Shown piece by piece: positions 1 to 38,319 of a stretch of 38,319 bases of DNA. Source of the DNA: a virus; IMG/VR virus record IMGVR_UViG_3300009285_010828, positions 1-38,319 of that record. One strand, given 5' to 3'. Position 1 is the first letter of the stretch, and every line of letters begins with the position of its first letter. The translations under genes and the position numbers were made by a program. A model generated the notes under the pieces. That model was not told the origin of the DNA. It was given only the letters and a program-made list of their open reading frames with translations, and did not search any database.

Positions 1-291
1 AGTCAAGTTTGTTCATTTTGATTGTTTTTACTTCATCTTCATTCTTTTTATGTTTTATTTTTTTTGATTATAGTCCATAAACTTTTCTTAATCTTGGCTG
101 AAGTTTTGTAAACCGAATTTTCTCTTCTTTTAAATCTAATTGAACTCTTTGCAAAGCGGCACGCCTTGCCTTGTCAGTCAAATCTGGTTGTGAGCCAGAA
201 TATTTATAATAATTTTAAACAAAAAGTTAATTTTGATAAAGAAGCTGAAATTTTAAAACTCTTTATTGACAATTTGATTTAAAAAAGTGTT
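1..291. other. Window-edge region without a confident gene
   Basis: This stretch has no ORF with a usable start. Two short open frames overlap on opposite strands. On the minus strand, 68-214 is open for 48 codons with good amino-acid composition (it includes LTDKARRAALQRVQLDLKEE) but has a stop just upstream and no ATG. On the plus strand, about 109-282 is open and ends ...EAEILKLFIDNLI* ten bases before the homing endonuclease. These look like remnants of genes joined or broken at this place, possibly by the neighbouring mobile gene, but chance is not excluded. Confidence 0.5.
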
Positions 292-1877: not shown

Positions 1878-2324
1878 ATGGACTTAATAAAAAATGTATT
1901 CTGGCAAGTTTCCTTATCAAATGGGGAAACTTTTTTTGAAAATAAAGGCAGATTTGTAGAGATTCCAAACGAATTATCCCCTTGGCAAAAATTATATAAA
2001 TATATTGCTGAAAATAAACTTCTAATTACTTCTCTCTCACTTTATACAAATGATGGCAGGACTTTTAATTTGCCTAGTGCCGGCAAAAATCCTAAATTTA
2101 AACCATTTAATGATGCCCCGAAACCAATTGATTATAATTTCTTCCGAGCTATAGCCAGAGAATTTACCGGAATGCAGGAAGGCAATAAAGCAACTATTAT
2201 CAATACTAAAATCTCTGATTGGTTTACTATTATTGAAGCGAGCTACCCCTCGTATAAACTCCAACTCTGGGTAGACAACCGAAACACTAAGAATTGTTGG
2301 GTTTTGGTTGTAAAAAATGACTAA
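1878..2324 (+). CDS. Hypothetical protein upstream of a large fibre-like protein
   Basis: The 148-residue product has no signal peptide, membrane segment or known motif. It is rich in aromatic residues (ending KLQLWVDNRNTKNCWVLVV), suggesting a compact beta-rich domain. GAAAGAGGCC lies 6-15 bases upstream of the ATG as a modest ribosome site. Its last eight bases overlap the start of the 590-residue virion protein, so the two are translationally coupled. A role in tail or fibre assembly is inferred from position only. Confidence 0.55.
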   Translation: MDLIKNVFWQVSLSNGETFFENKGRFVEIPNELSPWQKLYKYIAENKLLITSLSLYTNDGRTFNLPSAGKNPKFKPFNDAPKPIDYNFFRAIAREFTGMQEGNKATIINTKISDWFTIIEASYPSYKLQLWVDNRNTKNCWVLVVKND

Positions 2325-4090: not shown

Positions 4091-5995
4091 ATGGCACTTT
4101 CATTTTTACAGGCGACCACTAGTACCACAGATACAAACCAATATACATTTTCCGCCCAAAGTTTAGGTGCCGCCGCCGCCGACCGATATATTATAGTAAC
4201 CGCAGTCGCAAGAAAAGCCGGAGCGGCATTTACATTAAGTGGTATTACCATTGGTGGAGTAGCGGCCACAATCGTCAAACAGATTACCAATAATATAACT
4301 AATAGCGATTGTGCCGCAATGGTTATTGCCGCCGTTCCGTCCGGTACGACTGGAGACATTGTTGTTACATGGAGTACCACAGTTTTACGTTGTGCCATTG
4401 GAGTTTGGAGAGCCGATAATCTCGCAAGTGCTACCCCAAGCGATTCGGATTCAAGCACAGCCGCAGATCCAACAGTCAATCTTGATATTCCAAATAATGG
4501 ATTTGCAATTGGTGGTGGGCTTACTGCCGCCGCTTCTACTGCCGCATGGACAGGATTAACAGAAAAATATGATGGGGTATTAGAATCTTTTGTTACTTAT
4601 ACAGGAGCAAGCGATGAATTAGTATCTGGTCAATCGGGGCGAACAATTACAATTGATTTTGGTTCTTCTACGGAATCCGCAGGAGTATTTGTTTCATGGG
4701 CTTATGTAAGTGGAACATCTGTAAATTCCGAGAGAGCCGCTAAAGTCACAGGAAAATCTACTTCAAATTCTTCGAGATCAGCAAAAGTCACAGGTGAACA
4801 TTCAATAAGCATTGATTTAGTTGATATTACTTTTAGTGCCGGAACGCCAATGAATTCCGAGAGATCCGCAAAACTCACTGGTATTGCAACTACAGATTCA
4901 GAAAGATTAGTAAAAACTACAGGTAAGTTAACTGCAAATTCAGAGCATGATGCGAAATTAACTGGAAAAGATACCGCAAATTCAGAACGATCTTCGAAAA
5001 TCATTGGTACTGCGACTGCAAATTCAGAGAGATCAGCTAAGCTAATCGGTTCTATTGATGTAAATTCCGAGAGAGACGCAAAATTAACTGGTCAAAATCA
5101 AGCCAATGCCGAACGATCAGCAAAAGTAATTGGTGAATCAACCTCGGATTCTGAGCGATCAGCAAAAGTTATCGGTATTTTGGGAAGTAATAGTGAACGG
5201 TCAGCTAAGGTTACCGGCATTGCTTCTATAGATTCTGAAAGATCAGCCAAGATTATTGGAAAATTAACATCAAATAATGAGAGATCCGCAAAAACCACAG
5301 GGCAAGTTGCTATCTCAAATGAACATAGTGTCAAGGTTACTGGAAAAGCGGCTACCTATTCAGAGCGGGAAGCAAAAACTACCGGTAAAATAACATCTTC
5401 TGATGAGAGAGCCGCCAAATTAACTGGAATAGCCGGTTCTTCCAGTGAAAGATCGGCAATTGTTCAAGGCAAGGCTACAGAATCGACAGAGAGAGCCGCA
5501 AAAGTACATGGACAGCAAGATACATTCTCTGAAAGATCAGCGACGTTACAAGGGCAATCAAGCGCTTCTAGTGAGAGATCTGCTAAAACTATAGGTAAAA
5601 TTAGCGTTTCTAGTGAAAAATTTGCAAAAACAATCGGAAAAGCCGCGACATCAACAGAACGATTCGCAAAAGTCACTGGAACTTATCGTAGCAATAGTGA
5701 ACGGTTTGCCAAAGTCACTGGTGAAAATATTGCTAATTCTGAAAGATTGGCCAAAGTTACTGGTGGTTTGACTAGCAATTCCGAACGAGGTGCCAAAGTT
5801 ACCGGTGGTGCAATTAGCAATTCCGAACGAGGTGCAAAAGTCGTAGGTACTGGAAATTGGTATATTCCCGATCCTAAAGATTTATCTGATGAAAATCAAC
5901 CGGATTGGCAAGATCCAAATATTCCAGATTGGCAAGAAAATAATCCTATAGATATGTTCGATCCAGTGACGAAAAATTGGTATAAGAAGTATTAA
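4091..5995 (+). CDS. Repeat-containing tail fibre protein (26 SERxAK units)
   Basis: The 634-residue protein has three parts. Residues 1-211 are an Ala/Thr/Gly-rich beta domain typical of phage structural proteins. Residues 212-590 are a tandem array of 26 units of 14 residues with consensus NSERSAKVTGxxTS, interrupted once after unit 2 by a 15-residue insert. The last 44 residues are Trp- and Pro-rich with repeated DW (DWQDPNIPDWQ). The strict period suggests a fibrous stalk with one turn or hairpin per unit. DNA copies have diverged strongly, so the array is old and selected at protein level. It follows the previous gene by one base. A role as an elongated receptor-binding or decorating fibre is inferred. 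Confidence 0.8.
   Translation: MALSFLQATTSTTDTNQYTFSAQSLGAAAADRYIIVTAVARKAGAAFTLSGITIGGVAATIVKQITNNITNSDCAAMVIAAVPSGTTGDIVVTWSTTVLRCAIGVWRADNLASATPSDSDSSTAADPTVNLDIPNNGFAIGGGLTAAASTAAWTGLTEKYDGVLESFVTYTGASDELVSGQSGRTITIDFGSSTESAGVFVSWAYVSGTSVNSERAAKVTGKSTSNSSRSAKVTGEHSISIDLVDITFSAGTPMNSERSAKLTGIATTDSERLVKTTGKLTANSEHDAKLTGKDTANSERSSKIIGTATANSERSAKLIGSIDVNSERDAKLTGQNQANAERSAKVIGESTSDSERSAKVIGILGSNSERSAKVTGIASIDSERSAKIIGKLTSNNERSAKTTGQVAISNEHSVKVTGKAATYSEREAKTTGKITSSDERAAKLTGIAGSSSERSAIVQGKATESTERAAKVHGQQDTFSERSATLQGQSSASSERSAKTIGKISVSSEKFAKTIGKAATSTERFAKVTGTYRSNSERFAKVTGENIANSERLAKVTGGLTSNSERGAKVTGGAISNSERGAKVVGTGNWYIPDPKDLSDENQPDWQDPNIPDWQENNPIDMFDPVTKNWYKKY
4724..5860 (+). repeat. 42-bp coding tandem repeat, 26 units
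   Basis: Twenty-six in-frame units of 42 bases encode NSERxAKxTG-type 14-mers; one 45-base insert follows the second unit (26 x 42 + 45 = 1137 bases). SER and AK are the most constant positions; units 14-22 drift most (for example SNEHSVKVTG and STERAAKVHG). The codons differ between copies, so recent duplication is limited to a few pairs near the end (units 24-26). Confidence 0.9.
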
Positions 5996-13408: not shown

Positions 13409-13918
13409 ATGAGGGACTCAAAAGGCAGATTTATTAAAGGGCATAGTCTTGGGTTAAGATTTGGTGTTGGACAGAAAATGTTTGTACCTAAAAAAGGGCA
13501 ACATATGAGTCCACAAACTGAATTTAAAAAGGGACAAATAGCACCAAATAAAGATAAGTCAATGTGGGCTGGAAGAAAACAAAATCTTAAAATTAAACAT
13601 TTTTCTGGAGAAAATCATTGGAATTGGAAGGGCGGTATTACTCCTATAAATGAGAAAATTAGAAGAACTATTGAGTACGAAGAATGGCGCAAAGCCGTTT
13701 TTGAAAGAGATAATTATACTTGCCAGCTTTGTGGAGAGATAGGTGGAGTACTTCACGCAGATCATATAAAGGACTTTTCTTCTTACCCAGAATTTAGATT
13801 TGAATTAAGCAACGGTCGTACTCTTTGTAAAAATTGTCATTTAAAAACTGACAATTGGGGTATGAGAGGAAAGGAGAAGAAAAATGTCCCAATTTCTGGG
13901 CTTCGGATCGGGAGTTGA
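13409..13918 (+). CDS. HNH homing endonuclease
   Basis: This 169-residue protein is an HNH nuclease. The N-terminal half is basic, with repeated KKGQ motifs and FSGENHWNWKGGITP (residues 65-79), typical of phage HNH homing endonucleases. The catalytic part holds a zinc pair CQLC (105-108), LHADHI (H116, D118, H119), N135 and CKNCH (140-144). It begins two bases after the previous gene. Its last 35 bases overlap the start of the glycine-rich protein, whose ribosome site AAAGGAGAAG (13870-13879) is embedded in it. Free-standing HNH genes like this cut alleles that lack them. Confidence 0.85.
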   Translation: MRDSKGRFIKGHSLGLRFGVGQKMFVPKKGQHMSPQTEFKKGQIAPNKDKSMWAGRKQNLKIKHFSGENHWNWKGGITPINEKIRRTIEYEEWRKAVFERDNYTCQLCGEIGGVLHADHIKDFSSYPEFRFELSNGRTLCKNCHLKTDNWGMRGKEKKNVPISGLRIGS

Positions 13919-15012: not shown

Positions 15013-16095
15013 ATGAAATTGAATATACCAGTAATTTATAGCCAATGGGATTCACGCTGGGCAAGTATTTTACTTGGTTTTTCTACAATTGCTACCAGCA
15101 ATATTTATAATTATGGTTGTTTAATTACCTGCCTTGCAATTGTTGCCAGATATTTTGGTAAACAAGTTACCCCTGCCGACATTAATGATAAACTCAAGGA
15201 GAAAAAAGGATTCAAAGGGAATCTTTATCTTTGGGGATTTCTGACTCAAGTTTTTCCGGATATTAAGGAAATTAAAACAGAAACACCGGATCTTCTGACT
15301 GATGCCCAGATCGGTGAAATCAAAGGCGCTATCGATTCCGGTTATCCGGTAATGGTGCAAATTGATGTAAATCCCAGAACGGTTGAAGCCGATATGCACT
15401 TCGTTTTGATTACTGGCTATAATCCAAGTGATGAAAATGATTTTACAATTGCGGATCCCTTGGGCGGTTTATTCAGATCCCTAAAAGATTATCTTGGATG
15501 GTTCAGGCCATCGGCAAGAAAAACAATAGAACGCTATGTTATTTATGAAGGAAAAGCCCAGCCGCCAAGTGCCGAGAATGAAACAATGCCGGTACCCAAA
15601 AAAGATTTTGAAAATCTAGTGCATGGATCTGACCAATGGGATAAAACAGTAGATGAATATTTGCCCGATGGCACCGACCCCAAACATACCCAATTCGATG
15701 TAGTCCAGAGGGTAGTATCGGGTTTCAAAAGTCGTGTAACTGACCTCGAAAACCAGTTAAATGAGAAAAATAAAGATCTGGCAGTAGCCAATACCGAGAT
15801 TGATAATCAAAAGGATAAGATAGCAAATATTGAAAAAGAGTGCCAAATACAGCTTAAAACACAGAAGGACTACTACGAAGGCATAATCGCTAACACTCCA
15901 AATATCGAAAAATTGAAGGGGCAATATGAGGGTACAATAGAAGATCTCAATGAAGAGCTAAAGGAAGCTAAAAAACAAGGTGGACTCAAAGATCTGGAAA
16001 TTGCAAGTCTTGAATCAGAACTTGATAAAACCCAAAAAAGCCTTGGACTTTTGAAATCTATTTTTTTGCTCTTAAAAAAACTTTTTAAGAAATAA
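15013..16095 (+). CDS. C39-like cysteine peptidase, putative endolysin
   Basis: This 360-residue protein has an N-terminal papain-like/C39-like domain (about 1-180): YSQWDSRWA is the usual start, NYGCLITC carries the predicted nucleophile C36, ADMHFVLITGY the histidine H129 and FTIADPLGG the aspartate D148. A linker (HGSDQWDKTVDEYLPDGTDP) leads to a coiled coil at about 235-345. The C-terminus (LGLLKSIFLLLKKLFKK) is an amphipathic, strongly basic helix that could bind membranes. It precedes three small membrane proteins, so it likely cleaves peptide cross-links of peptidoglycan at lysis. A virion-borne or other protease role is possible. Confidence 0.7.
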   Translation: MKLNIPVIYSQWDSRWASILLGFSTIATSNIYNYGCLITCLAIVARYFGKQVTPADINDKLKEKKGFKGNLYLWGFLTQVFPDIKEIKTETPDLLTDAQIGEIKGAIDSGYPVMVQIDVNPRTVEADMHFVLITGYNPSDENDFTIADPLGGLFRSLKDYLGWFRPSARKTIERYVIYEGKAQPPSAENETMPVPKKDFENLVHGSDQWDKTVDEYLPDGTDPKHTQFDVVQRVVSGFKSRVTDLENQLNEKNKDLAVANTEIDNQKDKIANIEKECQIQLKTQKDYYEGIIANTPNIEKLKGQYEGTIEDLNEELKEAKKQGGLKDLEIASLESELDKTQKSLGLLKSIFLLLKKLFKK

Positions 16096-17832: not shown

Positions 17833-17993
17833 TTGACCACGACTTGGAAATAGAGCGACAAGCACACCCAGAGAACTTCGAGCGAAGAGCCGAAGACAAT
17901 ATACAGCCGCCTATTATTCGTTACGAAACAGTGGACGAAGTGATGGCTCTTTTAAGACCGCGTTGGGAAAAATGGCAGAGGTTAAATGAATGA
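17829..17993 (+). CDS. Small hypothetical protein
   Basis: The 54-residue product is highly charged (DHDLEIERQAHPENFERRAE) and ends VMALLRPRWEKWQRLNE. It overlaps both neighbours by ATGA junctions (17829 and 17990), strong evidence of real translation. Its codon use is somewhat more GC-rich than its neighbours, which may mark recent arrival. No family is recognised. Confidence 0.6.
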   Translation: MIDHDLEIERQAHPENFERRAEDNIQPPIIRYETVDEVMALLRPRWEKWQRLNE

Positions 17994-18595
17994 AAGACTA
18001 CATTAGAACCAGATATATTCCTAAATGGCAAAAATTCCCTTGGACATTTAAAACTTGGCTAGAAAATAACTGGTGGGCGGTAATCATTGCTCTACAAATT
18101 GTAATCATTGGGCTTATTCTTTTTGACCATAGAGTAGCGGCAAAAATAGAAATAGCCGCGCCAATTCCGGATAGCCAAATAATAAAGCCTTCGCCTTCGC
18201 CGGATCCATCACCGGAAGTAAAGATCGAATCATATAAAGTAACAAAGCCGGAAACTAAAACATCAGAAGTCAAAACTAATTGGACGGGTACGGCCAGTTA
18301 TTATAGCCGCGCCGGTTGTGTCGGATGTAAATATAGGAATGGCAAAGAGGGTTGGAATTTATATATGCACAATGGGGAAGTTTTAGACGATACAAAACTA
18401 ACGGTTGCTTTTAACTGGCTACCGCTCAATTCTATGATTAAGGTCACAAACATAGATACTGGAAATCATATCAATGCCAAAGTAGCAGATACCGGCGGAT
18501 TTAACAGGCTTGGCCGGATTGTAGATTTAGGTTTGGCAGTAAAAGAAGCCATCGGATGCAATCATTTATGCCAAGTGAAAGTAGAAAAAATATGA
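17990..18595 (+). CDS. Membrane-anchored RlpA-like (double-psi beta-barrel) protein
   Basis: At 201 residues it has a basic N-terminus, one membrane span (about 29-46, WWAVIIALQIVIIGLILF), a Pro/Ser linker (SPSPDPSPEVKIE) and a C-terminal double-psi barrel. TGTASYYSRAGCVGCKYRNG (about 98-117) with LTVAFNWLPLNSMIKVTN and VADTGGFNRLGRIVDLG resembles RlpA/MltA-like enzymes and the 3D domain, with the conserved aspartates and the DTGG loop. Family members cleave or bind glycan strands of peptidoglycan, so this may act outside the membrane on the cell wall. The four cysteines (CVGC and later CNHLC) are extra. It overlaps the preceding gene (ATGA). Confidence 0.75.
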   Translation: MKDYIRTRYIPKWQKFPWTFKTWLENNWWAVIIALQIVIIGLILFDHRVAAKIEIAAPIPDSQIIKPSPSPDPSPEVKIESYKVTKPETKTSEVKTNWTGTASYYSRAGCVGCKYRNGKEGWNLYMHNGEVLDDTKLTVAFNWLPLNSMIKVTNIDTGNHINAKVADTGGFNRLGRIVDLGLAVKEAIGCNHLCQVKVEKI

Positions 18596-21946: not shown

Positions 21947-22120
21947 ATGATTGAACAAATAATTTTGGTTCTTGTAATTGGAATCTATATAAGTATTTTC
22001 CTTTTAGCATGGCGCCTTAATCAAATTTTTAAACATTTTGATAATGGCGAATTGCATAGGACACTTGCCGGATTACAACAAAGAATGACAAAAGCAAGAA
22101 AAAGAGAAAATACAAAATGA
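21947..22120 (+). CDS. Small membrane protein
   Basis: This 57-residue ORF begins right after the previous stop and has one membrane span (IILVLVIGIYISIFLLAW, residues about 4-21) followed by a basic tail (KARKRENTK). Its TGA overlaps the ATG of the methionine aminopeptidase gene (ATGA at 22117), strong evidence for coupled translation. No family is recognised. Confidence 0.65.
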   Translation: MIEQIILVLVIGIYISIFLLAWRLNQIFKHFDNGELHRTLAGLQQRMTKARKRENTK

Positions 22121-22878
22121 AGGCTTGGGAAATAACATCGGAAGTTTTAAAAGCAATGGTCAAAATGGCCGAAAAGGGTGGTATCAGTCCTATTGAAATT
22201 GATAAAATGGCCGAGAAAAAAATTATAGAGTTTGGCGGAAAAAGCATCAATAAAGGCTATAAGCCGGAATGGGCAAAATTTCCATATCCTAGAGTCAGTT
22301 GTATAGGTATAAATAACGTAATTACACACGGTATTCCAAATGAAGTTCCGATAATAGATGGTGATATTGTAACCTTCGATTTAGGAGTCAAAGATAAAGA
22401 AGGCAATTGTGGCGATGGTGCAATCACTATTCCTATTGGTAATGTCGAACAAAAGAAAGCAAGGCTTGTTTATTATGCAAAAAAAGTTCTCTTTGAAACT
22501 ATAAAAGAAATTAGAGCCGGTGTTGATACTCAAGATCTAGCGCATTTTATACAGCGTTGGGTTTGGGATCGTGGATTTAAGGTAAACCGAAAATATGCCG
22601 GTCATACCATAGGAAAAGAAATGCATGAAAAACCTGCTATATATAACACACTCGAACCGACTCATAAATATACAAAATTGGTCGAAGGCCAGCAAATTTG
22701 TCTTGAAATCATGCTGACTTGCGGGACTGATGATATAGGAGTGCTTGCACCCGATGGCTGGACAATAATTACCAAAGACAGTGAACCAAGTGCCTATTTT
22801 GAACATCAACTGGAAGTTACAAAAGAAGGTTGCAAAATCCTAACTTCGCATATAGATAATAATTTCGACTATTATTAA
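22117..22878 (+). CDS. map: Type I methionine aminopeptidase
   Basis: At 253 residues it matches cytosolic type I methionine aminopeptidases, which remove the initiator Met. All active-site residues can be found: H71 (ITHGIP), metal ligands D88 (VTFDLG), D100 (NCGDGAIT, one residue further than usual), H163 (AGHTIG), E197 (CLEIML) and E229 (YFEHQLEVT). The usual EP at the fourth ligand is EI here and the GHGIG loop is GHTIG. Phage-encoded versions are rare; it may serve to mature phage proteins or replace a host enzyme. It starts inside the small membrane protein gene and is the last of this operon. Confidence 0.9.
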   Translation: MKAWEITSEVLKAMVKMAEKGGISPIEIDKMAEKKIIEFGGKSINKGYKPEWAKFPYPRVSCIGINNVITHGIPNEVPIIDGDIVTFDLGVKDKEGNCGDGAITIPIGNVEQKKARLVYYAKKVLFETIKEIRAGVDTQDLAHFIQRWVWDRGFKVNRKYAGHTIGKEMHEKPAIYNTLEPTHKYTKLVEGQQICLEIMLTCGTDDIGVLAPDGWTIITKDSEPSAYFEHQLEVTKEGCKILTSHIDNNFDYY

Positions 22879-28986: not shown

Positions 28987-29904
28987 ATGACCGAAAATGT
29001 TTTGAATAATACCACTAATGCGGTATTTATACCTACAATTATTGCCCAAAAATGTCTACAGCGCTTTCCGGCATATTTGGATCTTGCTAAAACGGTTGCA
29101 AGGGATAGTGATTATGTTACTGCAACTTTTGGTGAGGTTATTCGAGTTGGCAAGACCGGTGCAGTTACAGCAAATGATAAAACTGCCGGTAGCAATTTCA
29201 CCAAGCAAAATCCGACTGGTACCGATGTTTATGTAACACTCAATCAGCATAAAGAAGTTACATTTACGATCGACGATGTTACCAAGGTTCTTGAAAATCA
29301 AGATACCCAAATGAAATATGCCAATGATGGCGCTATAGCATTGGCGGAAGCAGTTGAAAGTTCACTTTTGGCTTTGCACCCTTCGATTTCAAATACTATT
29401 ACTTGGAGTCGTACAAGTGCAACGACAATTGATGCTTCCATGCTCGCAATCCGAAGTTTTTTTACGACCCAAAAGGTACCGAAGCTAGAACAACGATATT
29501 TTTACGTTGATAGCACTATTTATAATGATCTTTTGGGAACGGATAAATATTCGAGATACGATGCAAGAGGTACCGGACAAACGATTCAAGACGCTCAAGT
29601 AATCCGTACTTATGGACTTGAAACACATGAATCACAGTTGATTCCGACTTCCGGATCGCCAGTTGCTTACCACAATTTGGCCTATACCCGCGATGCCTTT
29701 ATACTGGCCACGAGGCCGCTACCAAGGCCGGCCGCAGGTACCGGTGTACTTTCGTCTGTAATTAATGACCCGACGAATTCCGTTGCCCTAAGAACACTCT
29801 TTTGGTATAACGGAGATCTCGGTGCGCATCAATTGACTCTTGATTTGCTTTACGGCGTTGCTATCCTCGATCAGAGGAGAGTCGTAGAGGTCGAGAGCTT
29901 CTAA
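28987..29904 (+). CDS. Major capsid protein (HK97-fold, P22 coat-like)
   Basis: At 305 residues it is the predicted main shell protein. The N-terminus (NVLNNTTNAVFIPTIIAQKC) and the G-x-x-I/V-x-V pattern after it (FGEVIRVGKTGAV) resemble P22-coat-like capsids, with a long helix KYANDGAIALAEAVESSLLA in the axial position, and the C-terminal LRTLFWYNGDLGAHQLTLDL typical of the fold. A strong ribosome site AGAGGGGGTGA precedes the ATG. It follows scaffold after 78 bases. No sign of a protease or delta domain is present, consistent with the separate scaffold. Confidence 0.85.
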   Translation: MTENVLNNTTNAVFIPTIIAQKCLQRFPAYLDLAKTVARDSDYVTATFGEVIRVGKTGAVTANDKTAGSNFTKQNPTGTDVYVTLNQHKEVTFTIDDVTKVLENQDTQMKYANDGAIALAEAVESSLLALHPSISNTITWSRTSATTIDASMLAIRSFFTTQKVPKLEQRYFYVDSTIYNDLLGTDKYSRYDARGTGQTIQDAQVIRTYGLETHESQLIPTSGSPVAYHNLAYTRDAFILATRPLPRPAAGTGVLSSVINDPTNSVALRTLFWYNGDLGAHQLTLDLLYGVAILDQRRVVEVESF

Positions 29905-29991
29905 TCTAACGGTTCGCTCGATGCAAAAGGGTTTGACCACGACGTTTGACTGGCCAAGCCCTTTTTGCTATCGTAAATAAAGACCGTTAGA
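29905..29991 (+). terminator. Nested inverted repeat with long hairpin behind the capsid gene
   Basis: TCTAACGGT (29905-29913) and ACCGTTAGA (29983-29991) are perfect inverted copies. Inside lies a longer hairpin: 29919-29939 pairs with 29951-29973, including GCAAAAGGG against CCCTTTTTGC and TTTGACCA against TGGCCAAG with one mismatch, and an 11-base loop. It may be a terminator (T5 in the right arm) or a processing site behind the capsid transcript. The right outer arm serves at the same time as the 9-base element in front of the next gene. Confidence 0.6.
29983..29991 (+). repeat. ACCGTTAGA element, copy 1
   Basis: This 9-base element lies 3 bases before the ATG at 29995. The same element precedes three more glycosylation genes at the same distance (31477, 34698 and 36719), replacing the usual ribosome site. 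Confidence 0.65.
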
Positions 29992-29994
29992 AAA

Positions 29995-31212
29995 ATGTCT
30001 TATTATCTTATTAATCCTTTTGGCAGAGTTGTTGCTATCGATGATAAAAAAGAATATGAACGCTTCCTCAATACAGAAGGATTTGTTAAACCTACCCTAA
30101 AACAAGAACAAGATTATATAAACGAACGGATGCGGATCATCGCAGGTATGCGCAATCCACAATCAGAAAAAGAAGATAATCAAAAGGGTGTTTATTTTGC
30201 TACAGTTTCCCAGACAAAAAAGGATGGTTATAGTAATGCCAGTTTGGCACTTATCGAAGAATTAAAAAATCTTGGTATTAATGTTTCTACAGCAAATCGG
30301 GGACAAAAAATAGCGCTTTTATTTCATAACCCCTATTCGATTTTGAGTATCGAATCCCCTTTTCGGTTAATTTTTACAATGTTTGAATCCGATAAAATAC
30401 CCGATGATTGGCATGACTATTTAGAGGCCGCAGACTTGATTATTGTACCTAGCAAGTGGTGTTCATCAATATTTGAAAAATCGGGGTTTAAAACAACGGT
30501 AGTGCCTTTAGGTTATGACCATAAACTCTTTAAATTTGTAAAACGCCATAATAAAGCCCAAAAACATGAAGTATTCACCTTTTTGCATTATAACGCTTTC
30601 AATATTCGCAAAGGATTCACCGAAGTTTTGCAGGCATTTATAGAAGAATTTGATAAAACGGAACCGGTAAAAATGATTTTCAAAACAGTACTTGAACATC
30701 CGCCATTACAGATTCGTAAAGAAATGTATCCGAATATTGAAGTAATTGCCGGCGAAACTGATAATGAAGAACTTGTGGAAATTTGTAATAGATCGGATTG
30801 CTTTGTTTTTCCAAGTCGGGGTGAAGGTTTTGGGATTCCGCCACTTGAAGCAATGGCAACTGGAATGCCGGCGATAGTCCCTAATGCTCATGGAATAACT
30901 GAATATTTTAATAAAAATTATATGTATGAAGTAAAAATAGAGGGCAACTGCCCTGCCCTCTATAGCCGGTATAAAGGTGTTGATGTTGGCAAAATGATCG
31001 TATGTGATATGAAAGATTTAAAACGCCAAATGCGCTGGATCTATGAACATCAAGATGAAGCATTCAAAATGGGTGAAAAAGCCGCTAAATATGTCCAGAA
31101 TTGGACATACGAAAAAACAGCCAAAGCCCTAAAAGAAATTATCGATGAATATATGATGAAAGAAATAATAGACCGGCCGCTTAGAAATTCTCTGACACTT
31201 GAGGTAATATAG
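29995..31212 (+). CDS. GT-B glycosyltransferase (GT4-like) with extra N-terminal domain
   Basis: The 405-residue protein has a GT-B fold transferase domain from about residue 65. A first Rossmann half (GVYFATVSQTKKDGYSNASL) is followed by VPLGYDHKLF and the nucleotide-sugar site SRGEGFGIPPLEAMATG (274-290), with E277 and E285 as the EX7E pair of GT4-type enzymes. The first 60 residues (YYLINPFGRVVAI, VKPTLKQEQDYINERM) form a small domain I know from other phage proteins, perhaps a virion-binding tag. It most likely transfers a sugar from a nucleotide donor. It starts the island behind the capsid gene. Confidence 0.8.
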   Translation: MSYYLINPFGRVVAIDDKKEYERFLNTEGFVKPTLKQEQDYINERMRIIAGMRNPQSEKEDNQKGVYFATVSQTKKDGYSNASLALIEELKNLGINVSTANRGQKIALLFHNPYSILSIESPFRLIFTMFESDKIPDDWHDYLEAADLIIVPSKWCSSIFEKSGFKTTVVPLGYDHKLFKFVKRHNKAQKHEVFTFLHYNAFNIRKGFTEVLQAFIEEFDKTEPVKMIFKTVLEHPPLQIRKEMYPNIEVIAGETDNEELVEICNRSDCFVFPSRGEGFGIPPLEAMATGMPAIVPNAHGITEYFNKNYMYEVKIEGNCPALYSRYKGVDVGKMIVCDMKDLKRQMRWIYEHQDEAFKMGEKAAKYVQNWTYEKTAKALKEIIDEYMMKEIIDRPLRNSLTLEVI

Positions 31213-31230
31213 AAGGTGGGGGTGAATAAA

Positions 31231-31473
31231 ATGGTTAAAATTAAAGAAAAATTAGAAACTGAAAACATCACAAAACCGGTCAAACTTTTATGGCGTTATT
31301 TTTGCGATGCCTGTACTGGCCGTGCCACTTATGCCTCTGAACCTTATAATTTTAAAAGTATAAATTGCGGAAATTGTGGTGCAGTTTGCAGTTATAAACC
31401 GGAGAATTGGATCAAGATAACCAGTAAAGAAGAATTGGCCAAGATCAATCAGCCAATTGAGAGCGAAATCTAA
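31231..31473 (+). CDS. Small zinc-ribbon protein in the glycosylation island
   Basis: The 80-residue protein has two cysteine pairs (CDAC at about residues 25-28 and CGNC at about 46-49, with another C near) inside YFCDACTGRATYASE and SINCGNCGAVCSYK, a zinc-ribbon pattern. The ATG at 31231 follows the ribosome site GGTGGGGGTGA; the frame opens 15 bases earlier with a GTG that would sit inside that site, so I prefer the ATG. It may bind nucleic acid or be structural. Confidence 0.65.
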   Translation: MVKIKEKLETENITKPVKLLWRYFCDACTGRATYASEPYNFKSINCGNCGAVCSYKPENWIKITSKEELAKINQPIESEI

Positions 31474-31476
31474 AAA

Positions 31477-31485
31477 ACCGTTAGA
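31477..31485 (+). repeat. ACCGTTAGA element, copy 2
   Basis: An exact copy of the 9-base element, 2 bases before the ATG at 31488. No GGAGG-like sequence is present for this gene. Confidence 0.65.
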
Positions 31486-31487
31486 TT

Positions 31488-32621
31488 ATGAAATTAAAGT
31501 ATTGCGGTACAGCCCGCGACTATTCCGGATACGGCGAAGCGGCAAGGCATGATATAGGTGCTTTAGTTCAGACCGATATAAACTTAACTACAGAAATCCC
31601 CTCTTATTGTTTAGAAATTGCAGATTTTGGAAGGCTTGGCGAAATAGCCTTGGCTTTGGAAAATAAGCCAATTGGCTATAAGATCAAAATCCTGCATACT
31701 ACCCCGAATGTTTATGGCCAATTTTTTGAAGAGGGCAAATACCATATAGGCCGTGTTTTTTGGGAAACTGATAAATTACCCTTGGATTTTGCACTTAATG
31801 TTCAGAAATGTGATGAGATCTGGACTGGTGCTAAATTCAATGAACAAGCAATTAAAAATGCCGGTGTTACTAAACCGATTTATATAATTCCGGAAGCAAT
31901 TGATACCGGAGTAACCCGTGATGATTTTAAACCTTATGCTATACCGAATAAAGATGATTTCAAATTCTACTCGATATTTGAATGGACAGAACGCAAAAAC
32001 CCGATGGCTCTTTTGGAAGCATTCTGGCTGGAATTTGAAAATGATGAGCATGTAAGTCTTACAATTAAAACTTATGTCGATAATTTCACACCTAATAAAA
32101 AAGAGGAATTGAATCAAAATATTAAAAGAATCAAAAAAAGATTGGCTTTAAATAAATATGCACCGGTCTATTTATATCGGAATCTTATGGATAGAAATCA
32201 GATCTATAGATTCCATGCAACTTTTGATTGTTTTGTTTCAACCCATCGGGGCGAGGGGTGGGGTATTCCACAAATGGAAGCACTCTTAATGGGCAATCCA
32301 ATAATTTCGACTAATCTTGGTGGAATCCATGAATATTTGGAAAATAATAAAGAAGCCTTGCTTTTGCCTTATGAGATGATTCAAATTGTAGAAAATAGCC
32401 GGAACCAACAATGGTATACCAGAGATCAAAAATGGGGTGATGTTAAAATTCCGGAAGCAAGAGAAGCAATGCGTTGGGTTTTTAATAATAGAAATTTGGC
32501 AAAAGAAATGGGATTGGCCGGCAGAAAAAAAGTAATTGAGAATTTCAGCTTTAAAATAATTGGCGGTAAAATGTATCAAAGATTGCAAGAGATCCAAAAT
32601 AGTTTTATTAATCTCGACTAA
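31488..32621 (+). CDS. GT-B glycosyltransferase (GT4-like)
   Basis: This 377-residue enzyme begins KYCGTARDYSGYGEAARHDI, the glycine-rich acceptor loop of GT4-type enzymes. The middle has IIPEAIDTGVTRDDF and FYSIFEWTERKNPMALLEAF, the typical linker and second Rossmann start, and the donor site reads STHRGEGWGIPQMEALLMG with E256 and E264 as EX7E pair. It thus likely uses a nucleotide sugar. It is followed by the next transferase with the stop and ATG overlapping (TAATG), so they are coupled. Confidence 0.8.
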   Translation: MKLKYCGTARDYSGYGEAARHDIGALVQTDINLTTEIPSYCLEIADFGRLGEIALALENKPIGYKIKILHTTPNVYGQFFEEGKYHIGRVFWETDKLPLDFALNVQKCDEIWTGAKFNEQAIKNAGVTKPIYIIPEAIDTGVTRDDFKPYAIPNKDDFKFYSIFEWTERKNPMALLEAFWLEFENDEHVSLTIKTYVDNFTPNKKEELNQNIKRIKKRLALNKYAPVYLYRNLMDRNQIYRFHATFDCFVSTHRGEGWGIPQMEALLMGNPIISTNLGGIHEYLENNKEALLLPYEMIQIVENSRNQQWYTRDQKWGDVKIPEAREAMRWVFNNRNLAKEMGLAGRKKVIENFSFKIIGGKMYQRLQEIQNSFINLD

Positions 32622-33631
32622 TGAGAATCCATTATGTAAGTTGCCATAGTGTTTTGGAATATGATGAACTAAAACTCTTCACAGAGATGGGTGTAGAAGT
32701 ATTTTCAAATGGCGCTTATCGGGATCCAAAAGGTGCCTATACTCTACCCCGCCCTGCCGTTGAAGGCGCCCCATTTTTTGAACAATTCAGTGAACTTGCG
32801 GCAATCTACCCAAAAACAGATTTGCCGGAGAAACTTATAGATCCATTTGATGCCATTATGATAATGCATTTGCCGGAAGCATTATTTAGTAATTGGCCAA
32901 AAATCAAGCATAAAAGGATTATCTGGCGTTCAATTGGGCAATCTACACCGAGTCTTGAGAGCCGTCTAAAGCCCCTAAAAGATGAAGGATTACAAATAGT
33001 GCGCTATAGCCTTAAAGAAAAAAAACTACCTAATTTCGCTGGTACAGATGCCATAATTCAATTTTATAAGGATCCGGACGAATATAATGGTTGGATTGGC
33101 GATAGTGATGAAGTAGTTAATTTTACCCAAACTCTTCTTGGCCGCCGTTATTTCTGTCATTATGACGAAGTGATGCGTATAGGTGAAGGTTTTAATTTCA
33201 AAGTTTATGGAACCGGCAATGAAGATCTTGGCAAATTAAATGGTGGCGAATTACCTTTTGAACTTTTGAAAGATAAAATGCGCAAAGCTAGAGTTTTTAT
33301 TTATGCAGGAACTTGGCCGGCACCCTATACTCTTTCAATAATCGAGGCTATGATGATTGGGATTCCAGTTGTGGCAATTGGTAAGAAATTGGCAGAGGAA
33401 GTACCAAATACTGAAAAATTGGATTTTTATCAAATACCAGAAATAATTACAAATGGACTCAATGGTTTTATTAGTGATGATATTGGTGAATTGCGTCAGG
33501 GAATCCGTTATTTATTAGACAATTACGAATCAGCAAAAAGGATTGGACAGGCAGGGCGTGAAACAGCAATAAAACTTTTTAATAAGAATCTGGTAAAATC
33601 AAAGTGGGCAAACTTTTTAAGTCTAAAATGA
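32621..33631 (+). CDS. GT-B glycosyltransferase-like protein
   Basis: The 336-residue protein has a GT-B layout: an N-terminal half (IHYVSCHSVLEYDELKLFTE, IIWRSIGQSTPSLESRLKPL) and a C-terminal half with FKVYGTG, ARVFIYAGTWPAPYTLSIIE (E242 in the place of the second EX7E glutamate) and GIPVVAIG. The first glutamate of the pair is replaced (W/P in TWPAP), so donor use may differ from its neighbours. It is joined to both neighbours by overlapping stop and start codons (TAATG at 32621 and ATGA at 33628). Confidence 0.7.
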   Translation: MRIHYVSCHSVLEYDELKLFTEMGVEVFSNGAYRDPKGAYTLPRPAVEGAPFFEQFSELAAIYPKTDLPEKLIDPFDAIMIMHLPEALFSNWPKIKHKRIIWRSIGQSTPSLESRLKPLKDEGLQIVRYSLKEKKLPNFAGTDAIIQFYKDPDEYNGWIGDSDEVVNFTQTLLGRRYFCHYDEVMRIGEGFNFKVYGTGNEDLGKLNGGELPFELLKDKMRKARVFIYAGTWPAPYTLSIIEAMMIGIPVVAIGKKLAEEVPNTEKLDFYQIPEIITNGLNGFISDDIGELRQGIRYLLDNYESAKRIGQAGRETAIKLFNKNLVKSKWANFLSLK

Positions 33632-33852
33632 AATCTCTATATGGGCGGATTATTAAAAAGATCTGTAAAATTCATTCTATCCAGTATTGTAAAGAACCGG
33701 AAGCGAATTTGAATCCGGTATGGGAAAATGGTTTTTGCGATATTTGTGAAGTGACCGGTGCGCCGAATGTACCCCAAAGTATAACCAAACCTTCTTTTTT
33801 CCGAGGACTTAGAATAGAATTATTTGAAGAAATGCAGGTGCCTAATCCATGA
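33628..33852 (+). CDS. Small cysteine-containing protein
   Basis: The 74-residue product starts at ATG 33628, overlapping the transferase stop (ATGA); a GTG 24 bases earlier is less likely. It is basic at first (KSLYGRIIKKICKIHSIQYC) and later has GFCDICEVTGAPNVPQ. The C-x2-H ... C ... C-x2-C arrangement could hold zinc. It overlaps the methyltransferase start by four bases. Its function is unknown. Confidence 0.55.
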   Translation: MKSLYGRIIKKICKIHSIQYCKEPEANLNPVWENGFCDICEVTGAPNVPQSITKPSFFRGLRIELFEEMQVPNP

Positions 33853-34541
33853 ACATTACGGATCGGCTAATAGCTTTAGATCCGACCCTAGAACGCCACA
33901 ATGAAGGTTTTTGGAATGAACCATACGATCCGCAAAAAGGCGGATTTTCTTCTTTTAATGATGCCGGTGTAGAATGCGAAGTCGGCGAATTCCTTTACTC
34001 TTTAATTCGACTTTTAAAACCAAATCGGGTTTTGGAAACTGGTACTCATATTGGAGTCGGTGCGGCCTATATGGGCATGGCTTTAAAGGATAATAATTTT
34101 GGAACGCTTGATACAATTGAATTCTTATTAGAACTTCAGGAACAAGCAATTAAAAGAATCCAAAAACTTGAATTAATGAATAGAGTTAATATTAGATTTG
34201 GTGATGTTAAAAATTTTGAGCCTATTAATTTTGGTCTTGGCAACAAAGATATTTATCAATTAATATTTTTAGATACGGAACCGCAAACCCGCTTCCGCGA
34301 GATGGTTCGTTTTAGCGGCTATCTGGCAAGGGGCGGGTTTTTATTTATCCATGATTTGCACCGGCATATGGGACAAAATTCCCATAATCCAGACCATCCG
34401 GAAGATCCACATTGGCCTTGGGGTGCAATACCGGAAGAAATGAGAAAACTTGTTATTGAACAATTCAGACCATTCCACTTCAAGACTCCAAGAGGACTTA
34501 CCGGATTTTATAAAACCGCAGAAGAGGATTATATTTGGTAA
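33849..34541 (+). CDS. Class I SAM-dependent methyltransferase
   Basis: At 230 residues it has the Rossmann-like methyltransferase fold. Motif I is RVLETGTHIGVGAAYMG (60-76), the acidic end of strand 2 is TLDTIE (D88, E91), strand 4 is YQLIFLDTEP, and GGFLFIHDLHRH follows with several His residues. It resembles methyltransferase family 24-type/O-methyltransferases used in polysaccharide biosynthesis, so O-methylation of the sugars added by neighbouring transferases is a reasonable guess. The ATG overlaps the previous stop region; the ribosome site is AGGTG (33836-33840). Confidence 0.75.
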   Translation: MNITDRLIALDPTLERHNEGFWNEPYDPQKGGFSSFNDAGVECEVGEFLYSLIRLLKPNRVLETGTHIGVGAAYMGMALKDNNFGTLDTIEFLLELQEQAIKRIQKLELMNRVNIRFGDVKNFEPINFGLGNKDIYQLIFLDTEPQTRFREMVRFSGYLARGGFLFIHDLHRHMGQNSHNPDHPEDPHWPWGAIPEEMRKLVIEQFRPFHFKTPRGLTGFYKTAEEDYIW

Positions 34542-34542
34542 T

Positions 34543-34698
34543 ATGCCATACGAAGTAATAAAAGTTGTTGAGGGTGTTTGGGCGATCAAAAATAAACAGA
34601 CCGGTAAAATAGTCGGCTATTCTGATACCAAAGAAAAAGCGGAAGCATCCGTAAGAGCGCGAATGGCCGGAGAATACGGAAATAGACAAAATAAATAA
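34543..34698 (+). CDS. Small phage protein (KAEASVRAR motif)
   Basis: This 51-residue protein reads YEVIKVVEGVWAIKNKQTGK followed by VGYSDTKEKAEASVRARMAG. I recall this pattern, two strands with a K-T-G-K turn and a helix S-x-x-K-A-x-A-x-x-R, from many small phage proteins of unknown role. I chose ATG 34543, directly behind the methyltransferase stop, because the longer frame from 34450 lies inside that gene. Confidence 0.6.
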   Translation: MPYEVIKVVEGVWAIKNKQTGKIVGYSDTKEKAEASVRARMAGEYGNRQNK

Positions 34699-34706
34699 CC
34701 GTTAGA
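34698..34706 (+). repeat. ACCGTTAGA element, copy 3
   Basis: An exact copy of the 9-base element, 3 bases before the ATG at 34710, directly at the stop of the preceding small gene. Confidence 0.65.
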
Positions 34707-34709
34707 TTT

Positions 34710-35681
34710 ATGAGTAGAGCCGTTTTAGTGCCATCAATTGGTGATCCATTCTTAATAAATCTCTGGTATAAACTTTGCCATCATTATTGGATAAAAGAAG
34801 TCGATAAAATCTATATTTCCATAGATTCCCATAATGAGCCTCTTTTTGGCGAAACCGCAAAATATTTTGATACTTTAGCCGAAGATAAAAAATTCAAGAT
34901 TATTTATAACGATGATCGAGGAATGGCTACTAATTTTGAAAAAGTATTTAATGCCTGCCAAGAGAATTATTTTGCATTTGTCCAAGAAGATGCTTTTATT
35001 TTTAAATCTGGCGAACTTGACCGGCAATTTAGAAAATTAGAAATTGGCATTGTTGATGTTATTGGAACACCAATGCAGGATTATACTTCTTTTCTTTCAA
35101 ATGATTTAGCCGAGCAATTTAATATACATAATAGATTTCTTTTGGAGCGGGGTTTATCACTTTGGCAAAATTTCCTTTTTGGGAATTGGAAAATGTGGTC
35201 TTTAGCTAAACCCCAGTTTGCACCTATAAGTTGGAAAAAAGGAACAAAAATTGAATGGCTTGATAATTATAAATTACCGGAAGATGCCAATTTGGATATT
35301 TTAGTTGAAACGATTTTTAAATTGCGGAAATATAATGCAAAATTCAGTTATGTAGCCCAAACTCTTATGGTTACTATTGATGCTTTCAGATATTTAGATA
35401 TTAATTTTTGGATCCACGTTAATAATCTTTCATCGATCATGGGTTTTATAGTCGGTGATTTTGGTGAACTTAAATTTAGCGACGATATAAGACATGAAAT
35501 GATCCGGCGGGTATCTTGGTGGTGTTTTGCCTATAAAAGTTCATTAGATTTAAAACAAATTATTCCTAATTTCGCCAATGAATATTTAAATGCAATCGAA
35601 AAAGTTAAAGAAATTTTCAGGATCCAACATAGGGATATAGAAAATCAAATGCAAATGATTGGAGATTTATTATGGCAATGA
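34710..35681 (+). CDS. GT-A-like glycosyltransferase, paralog 1
   Basis: At 323 residues it resembles GT-A (GT2-like) enzymes. The opening RAVLVPSIGDPFLINLWYKL is parallel to the next gene's AAILPYPADPFLLNYWLKF, so the two are paralogs. A strand-rich nucleotide-binding half ends in FAFVQEDAFIF, where E93-D94-A95 stands in the DxD position; the missing third acidic residue may alter metal binding. The rest (WIHVNNLSSIMGF, RRVSWWCFAY) is shared in part with paralog 2. It overlaps the next gene by ten bases. Confidence 0.65.
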   Translation: MSRAVLVPSIGDPFLINLWYKLCHHYWIKEVDKIYISIDSHNEPLFGETAKYFDTLAEDKKFKIIYNDDRGMATNFEKVFNACQENYFAFVQEDAFIFKSGELDRQFRKLEIGIVDVIGTPMQDYTSFLSNDLAEQFNIHNRFLLERGLSLWQNFLFGNWKMWSLAKPQFAPISWKKGTKIEWLDNYKLPEDANLDILVETIFKLRKYNAKFSYVAQTLMVTIDAFRYLDINFWIHVNNLSSIMGFIVGDFGELKFSDDIRHEMIRRVSWWCFAYKSSLDLKQIIPNFANEYLNAIEKVKEIFRIQHRDIENQMQMIGDLLWQ

Positions 35682-36733
35682 GAAGCCGAGCCGCAATATT
35701 ACCCTATCCTGCCGACCCGTTCTTATTAAATTATTGGCTTAAATTCTTTGACAATGTTTGGGGTGAGGAAATTGACAAATTATATATTTATATAAATTCC
35801 CCTATTGAAAAAGAAGTTAACGATTATATTATCGAACTTTGTGAGGCACGACCAAAAATCGATTGGATTCTCAACCATAGCCAGATAGATCATGGCGAGA
35901 TAATTAATCAAACGCTTAATTTTGTCAAAGAAGATCTTGTAGTACTTCTTGAAGATGATAGTTTTATTTTCAAAACAGATATAGTCAACAAGGCCTTTAC
36001 TCTCATTGAGAGTGGCGAATATGACATCGTAGGTTCCAAACGTGCTTCTTGCAGTATGGAGATTCTAAAGCGCGCAAAAGAGGTCTGGGGCATAGATTAT
36101 GAAGGTTATGGCGACCAAGGATGCAATTTCTGGCCAAATTGCTTTTTTATTCGAAAAGAATTGCTTTTGGCAACCGATAGGAATTTTTGTGGTAAGACAT
36201 GGCTCAAAGGCGATATTATTGAAGCCTTGGATAATTACATAATCCAAGAAGATATTTGTACTTCTGATACTTTTGTAAATACCAGCCTGCAACTTCGGAG
36301 GCTTGTACCTAGCGGTAGAATTGCTTATTTAAATCAATATCACGGCCATCCAGATGACCCCCAGCATTTTATTGACCATACTTCGTTATTTGATGGTAAG
36401 GCGGCTTGGACTCATGTAGGTAGTTTATCAAGCGGGATTAGCGGGGTTTTAATGGATAATCAAGGCCGGTCTTTGGCAAGAAGACAAATAGATCCGCCAA
36501 AATCAGAAGGGGCAGTTTTAAATCCGGAATGGTGCAAAACTGAAATGGAAAAAGGTGAATGGGAACGAAGAGTTTGTTTTTGGTCTTTATTTTTTGATGC
36601 AAGCAATCCTTCTAAAATAGCAGAATTTAGGCGCCTCTATCATCAGGCAATCGAAAGAATTATAATACAATATAGGTTAAGTCGAAAATCAATAGATCAT
36701 AGAAAATATATTTATAGAACCGTTGGATTATGA
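35672..36733 (+). CDS. GT-A-like glycosyltransferase, paralog 2
   Basis: This 353-residue protein is the fuller copy. DPFLLNYWLKF opens the first Rossmann strand region, VVLLEDDSFIFKTD carries E94-D95-D96 in the DxD place, and PNCFFIRKELLLATDRNFCG resembles the acceptor-side segment of GT2-type enzymes. AYLNQYHGHPDDPQHFIDH has clustered His and Asp that may bind metal. It starts inside paralog 1 with ribosome site GGAG (35660-35663), and its stop overlaps the next ATG (ATGA at 36730). Confidence 0.7.
   Translation: MAMRSRAAILPYPADPFLLNYWLKFFDNVWGEEIDKLYIYINSPIEKEVNDYIIELCEARPKIDWILNHSQIDHGEIINQTLNFVKEDLVVLLEDDSFIFKTDIVNKAFTLIESGEYDIVGSKRASCSMEILKRAKEVWGIDYEGYGDQGCNFWPNCFFIRKELLLATDRNFCGKTWLKGDIIEALDNYIIQEDICTSDTFVNTSLQLRRLVPSGRIAYLNQYHGHPDDPQHFIDHTSLFDGKAAWTHVGSLSSGISGVLMDNQGRSLARRQIDPPKSEGAVLNPEWCKTEMEKGEWERRVCFWSLFFDASNPSKIAEFRRLYHQAIERIIIQYRLSRKSIDHRKYIYRTVGL
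36719..36727 (+). repeat. ACCGTTGGA element, copy 4 (one base different)
   Basis: This copy differs in one base and lies within the last codons of the preceding gene (encoding RTVGL), 2 bases before the ATG at 36730. Its preservation inside a coding region hints at selection for the element or at exchange between modules. Confidence 0.5.
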
Positions 36734-37497
36734 TAAAACCAGATATTATTATTAGCTGGCCTAACAATTATGATTATCCTCTTTGGCGCCAATTTGTAAG
36801 AGATAATCGTGATAAATTTTCCAAAATAATTGTTGCATTTACTCAATCATTTCTTGGTGAAAATTATATAGAATTTATAAAAAAAGTAATGCTTGATGAT
36901 GTTATTTTTTTGGAAACAGTACCAAAAACAGGTCAAGATTGGCGGGATGCCGCCGTTAATATAGCTCTTGAATATTCGGATGCAGAATGGGTTTGGTTTA
37001 CAGAACAGGATTTTATTATTAAAAAAGGCTTTTGGGAAAATATAGATAAAATTTTAGAAGAAAATAAAAAGACTTTAATAATAGCGGCTTATGAAAATAT
37101 CCGAATGCATCCTTGTTGTATTTTTGCCCAGCGTTTTGCAATTAACCAAACAAGAATGGACTTTGGCATAGTACCAAATGAACTGGATCATTTCGGAGTT
37201 TTCCAGCAAGATATAGAAAATAAACAATTTTTGACAGCCAAAATTGATCCCAAAACTTATAATCATTTGGCCGGACTTTCCCATAATATGCGGCTTGTTT
37301 ACGATGGGGTATCACCTAACCATAATCCGGAAGAATTTAAAGAATATATGAAGGCATGTTTTGAAGTAAAAGTGCCATTAGATCCACGTTTTGAAAGCCT
37401 CTTCCAAAGGATAATAAATGTACCCAAAGAGAATAAAGAGGCGATAGGGGAGAGGTCAACTAGCCTCAAAAAGACAGTAGGGGAGTCGATAGGGTAG
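36730..37497 (+). CDS. GT-A-like glycosyltransferase, paralog 3
   Basis: The 255-residue protein is shorter but has the same frame. IIISWPNNYDYPLWRQFVRD opens it, DAEWVWFTEQDFIIKKGFW has E92-Q93-D94 in the place where the other two have ED(A/D), and YNHLAGLSHNMRLVYDG is close to an acceptor-side segment. So it is probably a divergent third member. The last 30 residues are charged and look disordered. It overlaps the previous gene by ATGA. Donor and acceptor are unknown. Confidence 0.6.
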   Translation: MIKPDIIISWPNNYDYPLWRQFVRDNRDKFSKIIVAFTQSFLGENYIEFIKKVMLDDVIFLETVPKTGQDWRDAAVNIALEYSDAEWVWFTEQDFIIKKGFWENIDKILEENKKTLIIAAYENIRMHPCCIFAQRFAINQTRMDFGIVPNELDHFGVFQQDIENKQFLTAKIDPKTYNHLAGLSHNMRLVYDGVSPNHNPEEFKEYMKACFEVKVPLDPRFESLFQRIINVPKENKEAIGERSTSLKKTVGESIG

Positions 37498-37509
37498 AGT
37501 AGGGGATTG

Positions 37510-38319
37510 ATGCAATATAATGTCTTTTCAGATCTTCATCATTTCGGGCTTTTTAACTCTTTAAGACTGCTTTTTGAAAAGCGTTTAGGGGGTAAAATAT
37601 ATCGTCCAGTTGGTGAAGACTGGCTTGAAAAAGGCTATTGGAAAATGGCCGAAATTTACAATAATCACCCTTCAACTGTAGCGCAGTATTTAGGAATTAA
37701 AGATGGCAATAGATTAAAAAATAATCACTACGAGATCTACGAACCGGAACATACTTATTGGCAAAAAGCATTAACACCGGAACAATTTTTTGCAAAGGAT
37801 ATTGATATAGTCATTGCATCAATTCCGGAGCATATCGAGAGTTTTAAAAGGCTCTGCCGAGAACACCCAAATCACCCGAAGTTTATTTATCAGATTGGTA
37901 ATGCTTGGCCGATAGAAGCCGGTACGGCGCCAAATATTATGGCCTCTGCCAAAATTGCCGGCGTTCCGGAAAATATACATTTTATCGAGTACCACCAAGA
38001 GTTTGACACCAGCATTTTCTATCCTACCCCGCCAGATAAATTCGGTAGCCCGTTACACAATATTTACTCTTTTATTAACTGTTTGAATACTGCCGATATT
38101 TATAAAAATGATTGGTCGCTTTTTACAGGATTAGAGGAAAAAATGCCGGACTGGAAATTCAGGAGTTTTGGCGGCAGTTGTCGAGATGGTGTTGCCAATG
38201 GTGAGGAAGGTGTTGCCGAAAAAATGCGGGAAGCAAAATTTATCTGGCAAGTAAAAGCCGGCGGTGACGGATATGGTCATGTTCTCTATAACAGTGCGGC
38301 AGTCGGTCGGCCGGTTATT
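37510..38319 (+). CDS. GT-B glycosyltransferase-like protein, cut by window end
   Basis: From ATG 37510 a frame stays open for 270 codons to the last base. It reads VFSDLHHFGLFNSLRLLFEK at the start, as GT-B sugar-processing proteins do, then DIDIVIASIPEHIESFKRL, FIYQIGNAWP, and near the end KFIWQVKAGGDGYGHVLYNS followed by AAVGRPVI, the second Rossmann half with the donor-site glycine-rich loop. So most of the enzyme is present but the C-terminus is missing. AGTAGGGG (37499-37506) serves as ribosome site. The family is inferred from fold pattern. Confidence 0.6.
   Translation, partial: MQYNVFSDLHHFGLFNSLRLLFEKRLGGKIYRPVGEDWLEKGYWKMAEIYNNHPSTVAQYLGIKDGNRLKNNHYEIYEPEHTYWQKALTPEQFFAKDIDIVIASIPEHIESFKRLCREHPNHPKFIYQIGNAWPIEAGTAPNIMASAKIAGVPENIHFIEYHQEFDTSIFYPTPPDKFGSPLHNIYSFINCLNTADIYKNDWSLFTGLEEKMPDWKFRSFGGSCRDGVANGEEGVAEKMREAKFIWQVKAGGDGYGHVLYNSAAVGRPVI

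Follow-up and report, generated by a model that had tools for sequence, protein, structure and literature searches.

What is the target of the sugar-modifying enzymes that a phage of uncultured origin encodes directly behind its capsid gene? Bacteriophage virion glycosylation is known from few isolates, mostly with few enzymes, and the window analysed here, the whole 38,319-nucleotide stretch of DNA (IMG/VR record IMGVR_UViG_3300009285_010828), is a 38.3 kb phage genome, its genes coherent on one strand, in which such enzymes fill the region from the capsid gene to the end of the record. We consider it probable, on balance, that this island is a phage-encoded glycan-assembly operon, most likely decorating the phage's own head during assembly; gene content and order, folds, capsid linkage, the domain fusion and the hairpin are observed, whereas the acceptor, the sugars, the sequence of reactions and the purpose are what we infer. 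If so, a conserved multi-step glycan pathway would occupy about a fifth of the genome, recur in environmental phages that have no cultured relative and move as a block between unrelated phages, and a domain fusion in its first enzyme would offer a direct, testable hypothesis for the selection of a capsid by a phage enzyme.

Gene content and genomic setting of the island

The island comprises 11 open reading frames (Table 1), all on the plus strand and at the positions given in the original prediction. Genes are spaced at -92 to +14 bases and therefore form one operon. Seven of them encode glycosyltransferase-type proteins (GT4 being only GT-B-like), one an O-methyltransferase and three small proteins. 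The predicted complement of four GT-B-like proteins, three GT-A-like proteins and one methyltransferase held for three GT-B enzymes by Pfam, with PF00534 scores of 62.6 (29995), 44.0 (31488) and 33.2 bits (32621) against a Pfam cut-off of 26.4 bits; for the protein at 35672, which has no significant Pfam match, as GT-A by its structural model; and for the O-methyltransferase at 33849. The remaining assignments are weaker: GT4 (37507), which has no Pfam or PHROG match, is placed with GT-B by a profile alignment that covers the catalytic region and is weak (hhalign E 0.013, probability 3%), and the proteins at 34710 and 36730 are placed with GT-A by sub-threshold PF00535 matches and their relationship to 35672. 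Against PDB sequences, the family profiles of GTa and GT4 gave only weak matches to unrelated proteins. Catalytic motifs are kept across the cassette enzyme families in alignments.

Table 1. Features of the island and its borders in the window (positions in nucleotides).
Feature	Position	Strand	Evidence or occurrence
Major head protein, P22-coat type; directly upstream of island; candidate acceptor	28987..29904	+	phrog_283 E 8.5e-38; PF11651 34.8 bits
Terminator-like hairpin between capsid gene and GT1	29919..29973	+	RNA fold -22.9 kcal/mol, z -3.35
N-terminal domain of GT1, ~residues 1-52, capsid-neighbour domain	29995..30150	+	Capsid-adjacent GT1s; stand-alone ORFs in relatives
GT1, GT-B glycosyltransferase (GT4 family) bearing an N-terminal head-module domain; putative initiating enzyme	29995..31212	+	PF00534 E 4.2e-17
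Small protein, two CxxC pairs (zinc-ribbon-like)	31216..31473	+	Occurs in part of relatives
GT2, GT-B glycosyltransferase	31488..32621	+	PF00534 E 2.3e-11; family alignment
GT3, GT-B glycosyltransferase	32621..33631	+	PF00534 E 4.8e-8; family alignment
Small Cys-containing ORF	33604..33852	+	
MT, SAM-dependent O-methyltransferase; proposed sugar cap	33849..34541	+	PF13578 and PF01596 above cut-off; PDB O-methyltransferase 8c9v E 1.3e-14
Small ORF overlapping methyltransferase end	34450..34698	+	
GT-A-type protein, 35672 paralogue	34710..35681	+	PF00535 E 6e-4, below cut-off; 29% identity to 35672; in some relatives only
GTA, GT-A-fold glycosyltransferase	35672..36733	+	Model pLDDT 92; Z about 16 to solved GT-A enzymes
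GTa, smaller GT-A-type protein	36730..37497	+	PF00535 E 0.0018, below cut-off; hhalign 93.6% probability to 35672 family
GT4, GT-B-like, cut by record end after 271 of ~350 residues	37507..38319	+	Family alignment; weak similarity to GT1
C-terminal codons of GT4	196..281	+	tblastn, best E 7e-8, 1 kb search space

Structure prediction and fold search, suggested in the original prediction as a check, were run for two enzymes and assigned 29995 to GT-B and 35672 to GT-A. The model of GT1 has a GT4-type GT-B fold (pLDDT 87) that aligns to MshA with a Z of 28.7 over 298 residues and to the chlorovirus protein B736L with a Z of 28.3 (sequence E 1.6e-6); both glutamates of its E-x7-E motif, E277 and E285 of EGFGxxPLE, are invariant. 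By domain, fold and motif, GT1 is a CAZy GT4-type glycosyltransferase, predicted to transfer sugar. None of the proteins was recognised by a specific family as an initiating protein glycosyltransferase. The maximum 19-residue mean hydropathy of the cassette proteins is 1.76, and judged by their sequences they look soluble, without membrane segments.

Upstream of the island lie genes for terminase, portal, minor head protein, scaffold and the P22-type major head protein. No terminal repeat was found in the record. The map is permuted, as had been proposed in placing the fibre and connector genes past the join: GT4 runs off the window end and resumes near its beginning, as located by tblastn of GT4 homologues, and a homologue of 935 comes after GT4 in three relatives (L011, L012, L015). 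The first ~195 bases (1-195) do not match the expected GT4 continuation and may be either an assembly end or inserted DNA beside the NUMOD3 homing endonuclease at 292-912. Past the join come a Ser/Thr-rich protein (935-1480); 1491; 1878; a 590-residue protein (2317-4089) with a weak CBM5/12 match, possibly a carbohydrate-binding fibre or decoration protein; a fibre (4091-5995) with at least 19 (loosely 25) SERSAKxTG-type repeats of 14-residue period; the head-tail adaptor; the tape measure; and the baseplate hub. Elsewhere the window encodes an HNH endonuclease (13409-13918), homologues of which lie within the glycosyltransferase cassette of relatives (L014 9413-9886; L032 6439-7089); a C39-type peptidase with a coiled coil (15013-16095) and a lytic-transglycosylase-like protein (17990-18595), each a possible lysis gene; and an M24 metallopeptidase of the methionine aminopeptidase family (22117-22878; PF00557 E 2.4e-31).

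The capsid gene is separated from GT1 by a terminator-like hairpin. The corresponding gaps of relatives differ in sequence and have strong hairpins too, with z <= -2.7 in 11 of 12 gaps, the window included; an Rfam search gave no match.

Linkage to the capsid gene and the N-terminal domain of GT1

The capsid protein, the methyltransferase, GT1 and GT2 served as queries in scans for relatives. Of 55 distinct capsid loci, 50 extend more than 600 bp past the capsid gene. In 42 of the 50, GT1 is present within 470 bp; the remaining eight are distant relatives that lack the cassette. Thus the search for the same cluster in other phages, proposed as a further check, succeeded: in 42 distinct environmental loci this capsid gene is followed by the cassette genes in one and the same order, an identity by which chance clustering is rejected, and phages with other head modules carry the core of the cassette as well (see below). 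The locus L022, with a capsid protein 35% identical, has only GT1 and GT2. No match was obtained for the head module in a DNA-level search of the phage collection, for 35672 as a single sequence against viral contigs, or for 35672, GT3, MT and GT4 against isolate phages by tblastn. A distant capsid relative (L025 10999-12322) carries a different pair of genes downstream of its capsid gene, consisting of a class I methyltransferase and an MptE-like protein.

The extra N-terminal phage-type domain that had been noted on the 29995 protein is indeed present, and it corresponds to a capsid-neighbour gene of cassette-less relatives. In the model, residues 1 to ~52 form a separate unit with a low-confidence linker to the rest of GT1. 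The domain was found in all 43 distinct capsid-adjacent GT1s. About a dozen full-length GT1-like proteins from cassettes at other sites lack it; three further matches in such cassettes are cut at contig ends and stand outside this count. In 21 of 30 distinct loci of cassette-less relatives (first noticed in L042-L044), the domain is a stand-alone open reading frame downstream of the capsid gene, with no match elsewhere in 645 kb. All 12 matches of the first, unbiased profile pass lay behind the capsid gene; the wider profile was retrained on matches in that position, which biases the later passes. The stand-alone protein of L044, used as a query against phages and viral contigs, gave no match, and the domain was subsequently traced via a wider capsid-profile scan. 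Because the domain is constant in capsid-adjacent GT1s, is found in none of the GT1-like proteins elsewhere and has its own reading frame in most cassette-less loci, the simplest history suggested by these sequences is that GT1 arose by fusion of a head-module gene with a GT4-family transferase. Such a fusion can also come from insertion, without meaning docking.

Binning placed close relatives of the window with MAGs of Patescibacteria (two) and Omnitrophota (one). The contig L039 belongs to bin nzgw408, the naming of which, we infer, matches a groundwater study that reports viruses co-binned with Patescibacteria (PMC10980836). Host searches with the capsid profile gave matches in the L037 phylum (4 of 380, three of them weak), the L038 phylum (1 of 285) and the L039 class (2 of 374, one of them weak).

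A portable core in other phages

The genes GT2-GT3-MT-GTA-GTa-GT4, or most of them, are also present without this capsid type (L084, L085, L087, L089, L112, L114-L117, L121, L126, L127, L129-L131). In the unrelated phage L130, the cassette follows a major head protein that belongs to another family; in L115, DNA polymerase and a UvsX-like recombinase flank the core, a layout shared by L112, L117 and L121; in L087, the core follows terminase and one further gene. This occurrence in phages with other head modules indicates, at the level of sequence, that the core moves as a unit. An NDP-sugar epimerase/dehydratase is added in all four of the cassettes elsewhere that were checked (L084, L085, L126, L131), and further methyltransferases are added in L084 and L126, so that the product is probably a sugar chain.

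The presence of the core in such different settings speaks for a common glycan product and makes a target bound to a single gene neighbourhood less likely; since phages with other head modules carry it, one group of them within the replication module, a head target cannot be assumed in every carrier. We tentatively suggest, as a possibility somewhat short of probable, that the portable core gives unrelated phages a common methylated glycan, with the target set by a lineage-specific first enzyme, which would here be docked to the capsid via a captured head-module domain.

Target of the pathway and comparison with known systems

The head is favoured as the target because the cassette is constantly linked to the capsid gene in this lineage and because GT1 carries the captured domain. 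In the proposed mechanism, GT1 would dock on the capsid protein or procapsid via its N-terminal domain, once the product of a separate capsid-neighbour gene, and add the initial sugar; the chain would be extended and branched from host nucleotide sugars by GT2, GT3, the GT-A enzymes and GT4; the methyltransferase would cap a sugar; and the hairpin between the capsid gene and GT1 would hold the enzymes at lower levels than the capsid protein. The purpose may be shielding of the particle or altered surface binding. Against this reading, the core lies in the replication module of L112, L115, L117 and L121 and behind terminase in L087, and capsid linkage is not universal. The virion glycosylation originally suggested is thus supported circumstantially in the lineage of the window, by capsid linkage in 42 loci, the N-terminal domain, the soluble proteins and the DNA supply genes that were not found; a head target need not hold for every carrier of the core.

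The spread of the core among unrelated phages and into non-structural modules is what would be expected if the enzymes instead modified a surface polysaccharide or lipid-linked glycan of infected or lysogenic host cells, thereby blocking superinfection or changing the receptor; multi-enzyme clusters with a methyltransferase look like surface-glycan clusters, and L084 and others carry sugar-nucleotide enzymes. We regard this as unlikely in the face of a cassette without membrane segments or a flippase-like protein, the lack of an integrase among the scanned window proteins, and the location of the cassette downstream of the capsid gene within a structural operon, along with the fusion of GT1 to a capsid-neighbour domain. 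The hydropathy maximum of 1.76 also sets the cassette apart from gtrABC-type serotype conversion, with its membrane flippase and membrane-anchored transferase. Glycosylation of modified bases in the phage DNA, as in T4 and hypermodified-DNA phages, appears very improbable. DNA glycans made by multiple glycosyltransferases have been reported (Pyle et al. 2024, as cited in PMC12619734), and one group of related contigs has the core flanked by the DNA polymerase and UvsX genes, with a C5 DNA methyltransferase nearby; however, this methyltransferase occurs only in that group (L093/L112/L115/L121) and was not found in the window lineage, and no DNA polymerase or nucleotide-metabolism gene was recognised among the scanned window proteins. 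A T4-type dCMP/dUMP hydroxymethylase of the thymidylate-synthase family was found in none of 24 records, some of them possibly incomplete, with controls matched in 9 of 14. A search for Tet/JBP dioxygenases gave no matches, but neither did its controls, so that a TET-type route may still apply.

A tail or fibre protein (4091, 2317 or 935) might be the virion acceptor rather than the capsid. Ser and Thr together make up 26.5% of 935 and 25.1% of 4091, and in L022, with its two transferases, the homologue of 935 comes directly after them and is 57% identical, against 35% for the capsid protein. In L005 and L038, however, the cassette joins the head-tail adaptor directly, without 935 and fibre genes between, and the capsid gene alone is the constant neighbour in this lineage; we find a tail or fibre acceptor highly doubtful. 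The same two loci led us to reject, as the specific acceptor, the Ser/Thr-rich repeat fibre at 4091, originally singled out as a plausible one.

Decoration of the head, the preferred reading, has counterparts in two known systems, and the island may work like both, with membership in neither claimed. Capsid and tail tube proteins carry sugars in mycobacteriophages (PMC12363180; PMC12619734), and Che8 gp110 and Corndog gp38 are cited for virion glycosylation (Freeman et al. 2023, via PMC12363180, PMC11256854 and PMC12619734). The transferases are phage-encoded in both cases, with capsid and tail tube targets reported for the mycobacteriophages; whereas those phages have few transferases, the island has seven and a methyltransferase, set in a cassette of constant order downstream of the capsid gene, and its GT1 bears a capsid-neighbour domain. 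No mycobacteriophage was among the tblastn matches of GT1 and GT2 in 50,697 phage records. Chlorovirus capsid glycans, which have a five-sugar core conserved across viruses, are made by several soluble virus enzymes, one with a glycosyltransferase domain and a predicted methyltransferase domain (PMC5408694, PMC7826918). As in PBCV-1 (A064R, A111/114R, A546L/B736L), several soluble transferases and a methyltransferase function are found here, and GT1 resembles B736L; in contrast to the bacteriophage operon, chloroviruses are eukaryotic algal viruses with N-linked glycans and a different kind of capsid.

Two isolate phages offer partial parallels. The sugar cluster of Flavobacterium phage immuto (MW353176) has several glycosyltransferases, a methyltransferase and a sugar transaminase, but is not adjacent to a capsid gene in the stretch read, and GT3, MT and GT4 have no homology to isolate phage records, immuto included. 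Arthrobacter phage Kitkat has a glycosyltransferase gene in its head-tail module behind the capsid gene, and the product (gp29) is 21% identical to GT2 over 89%, but this is a single enzyme without a cassette. Thus the system is known in kind, from mycobacteriophage capsids and chloroviruses, whereas the putative docking fusion and the portable cassette appear to be new.
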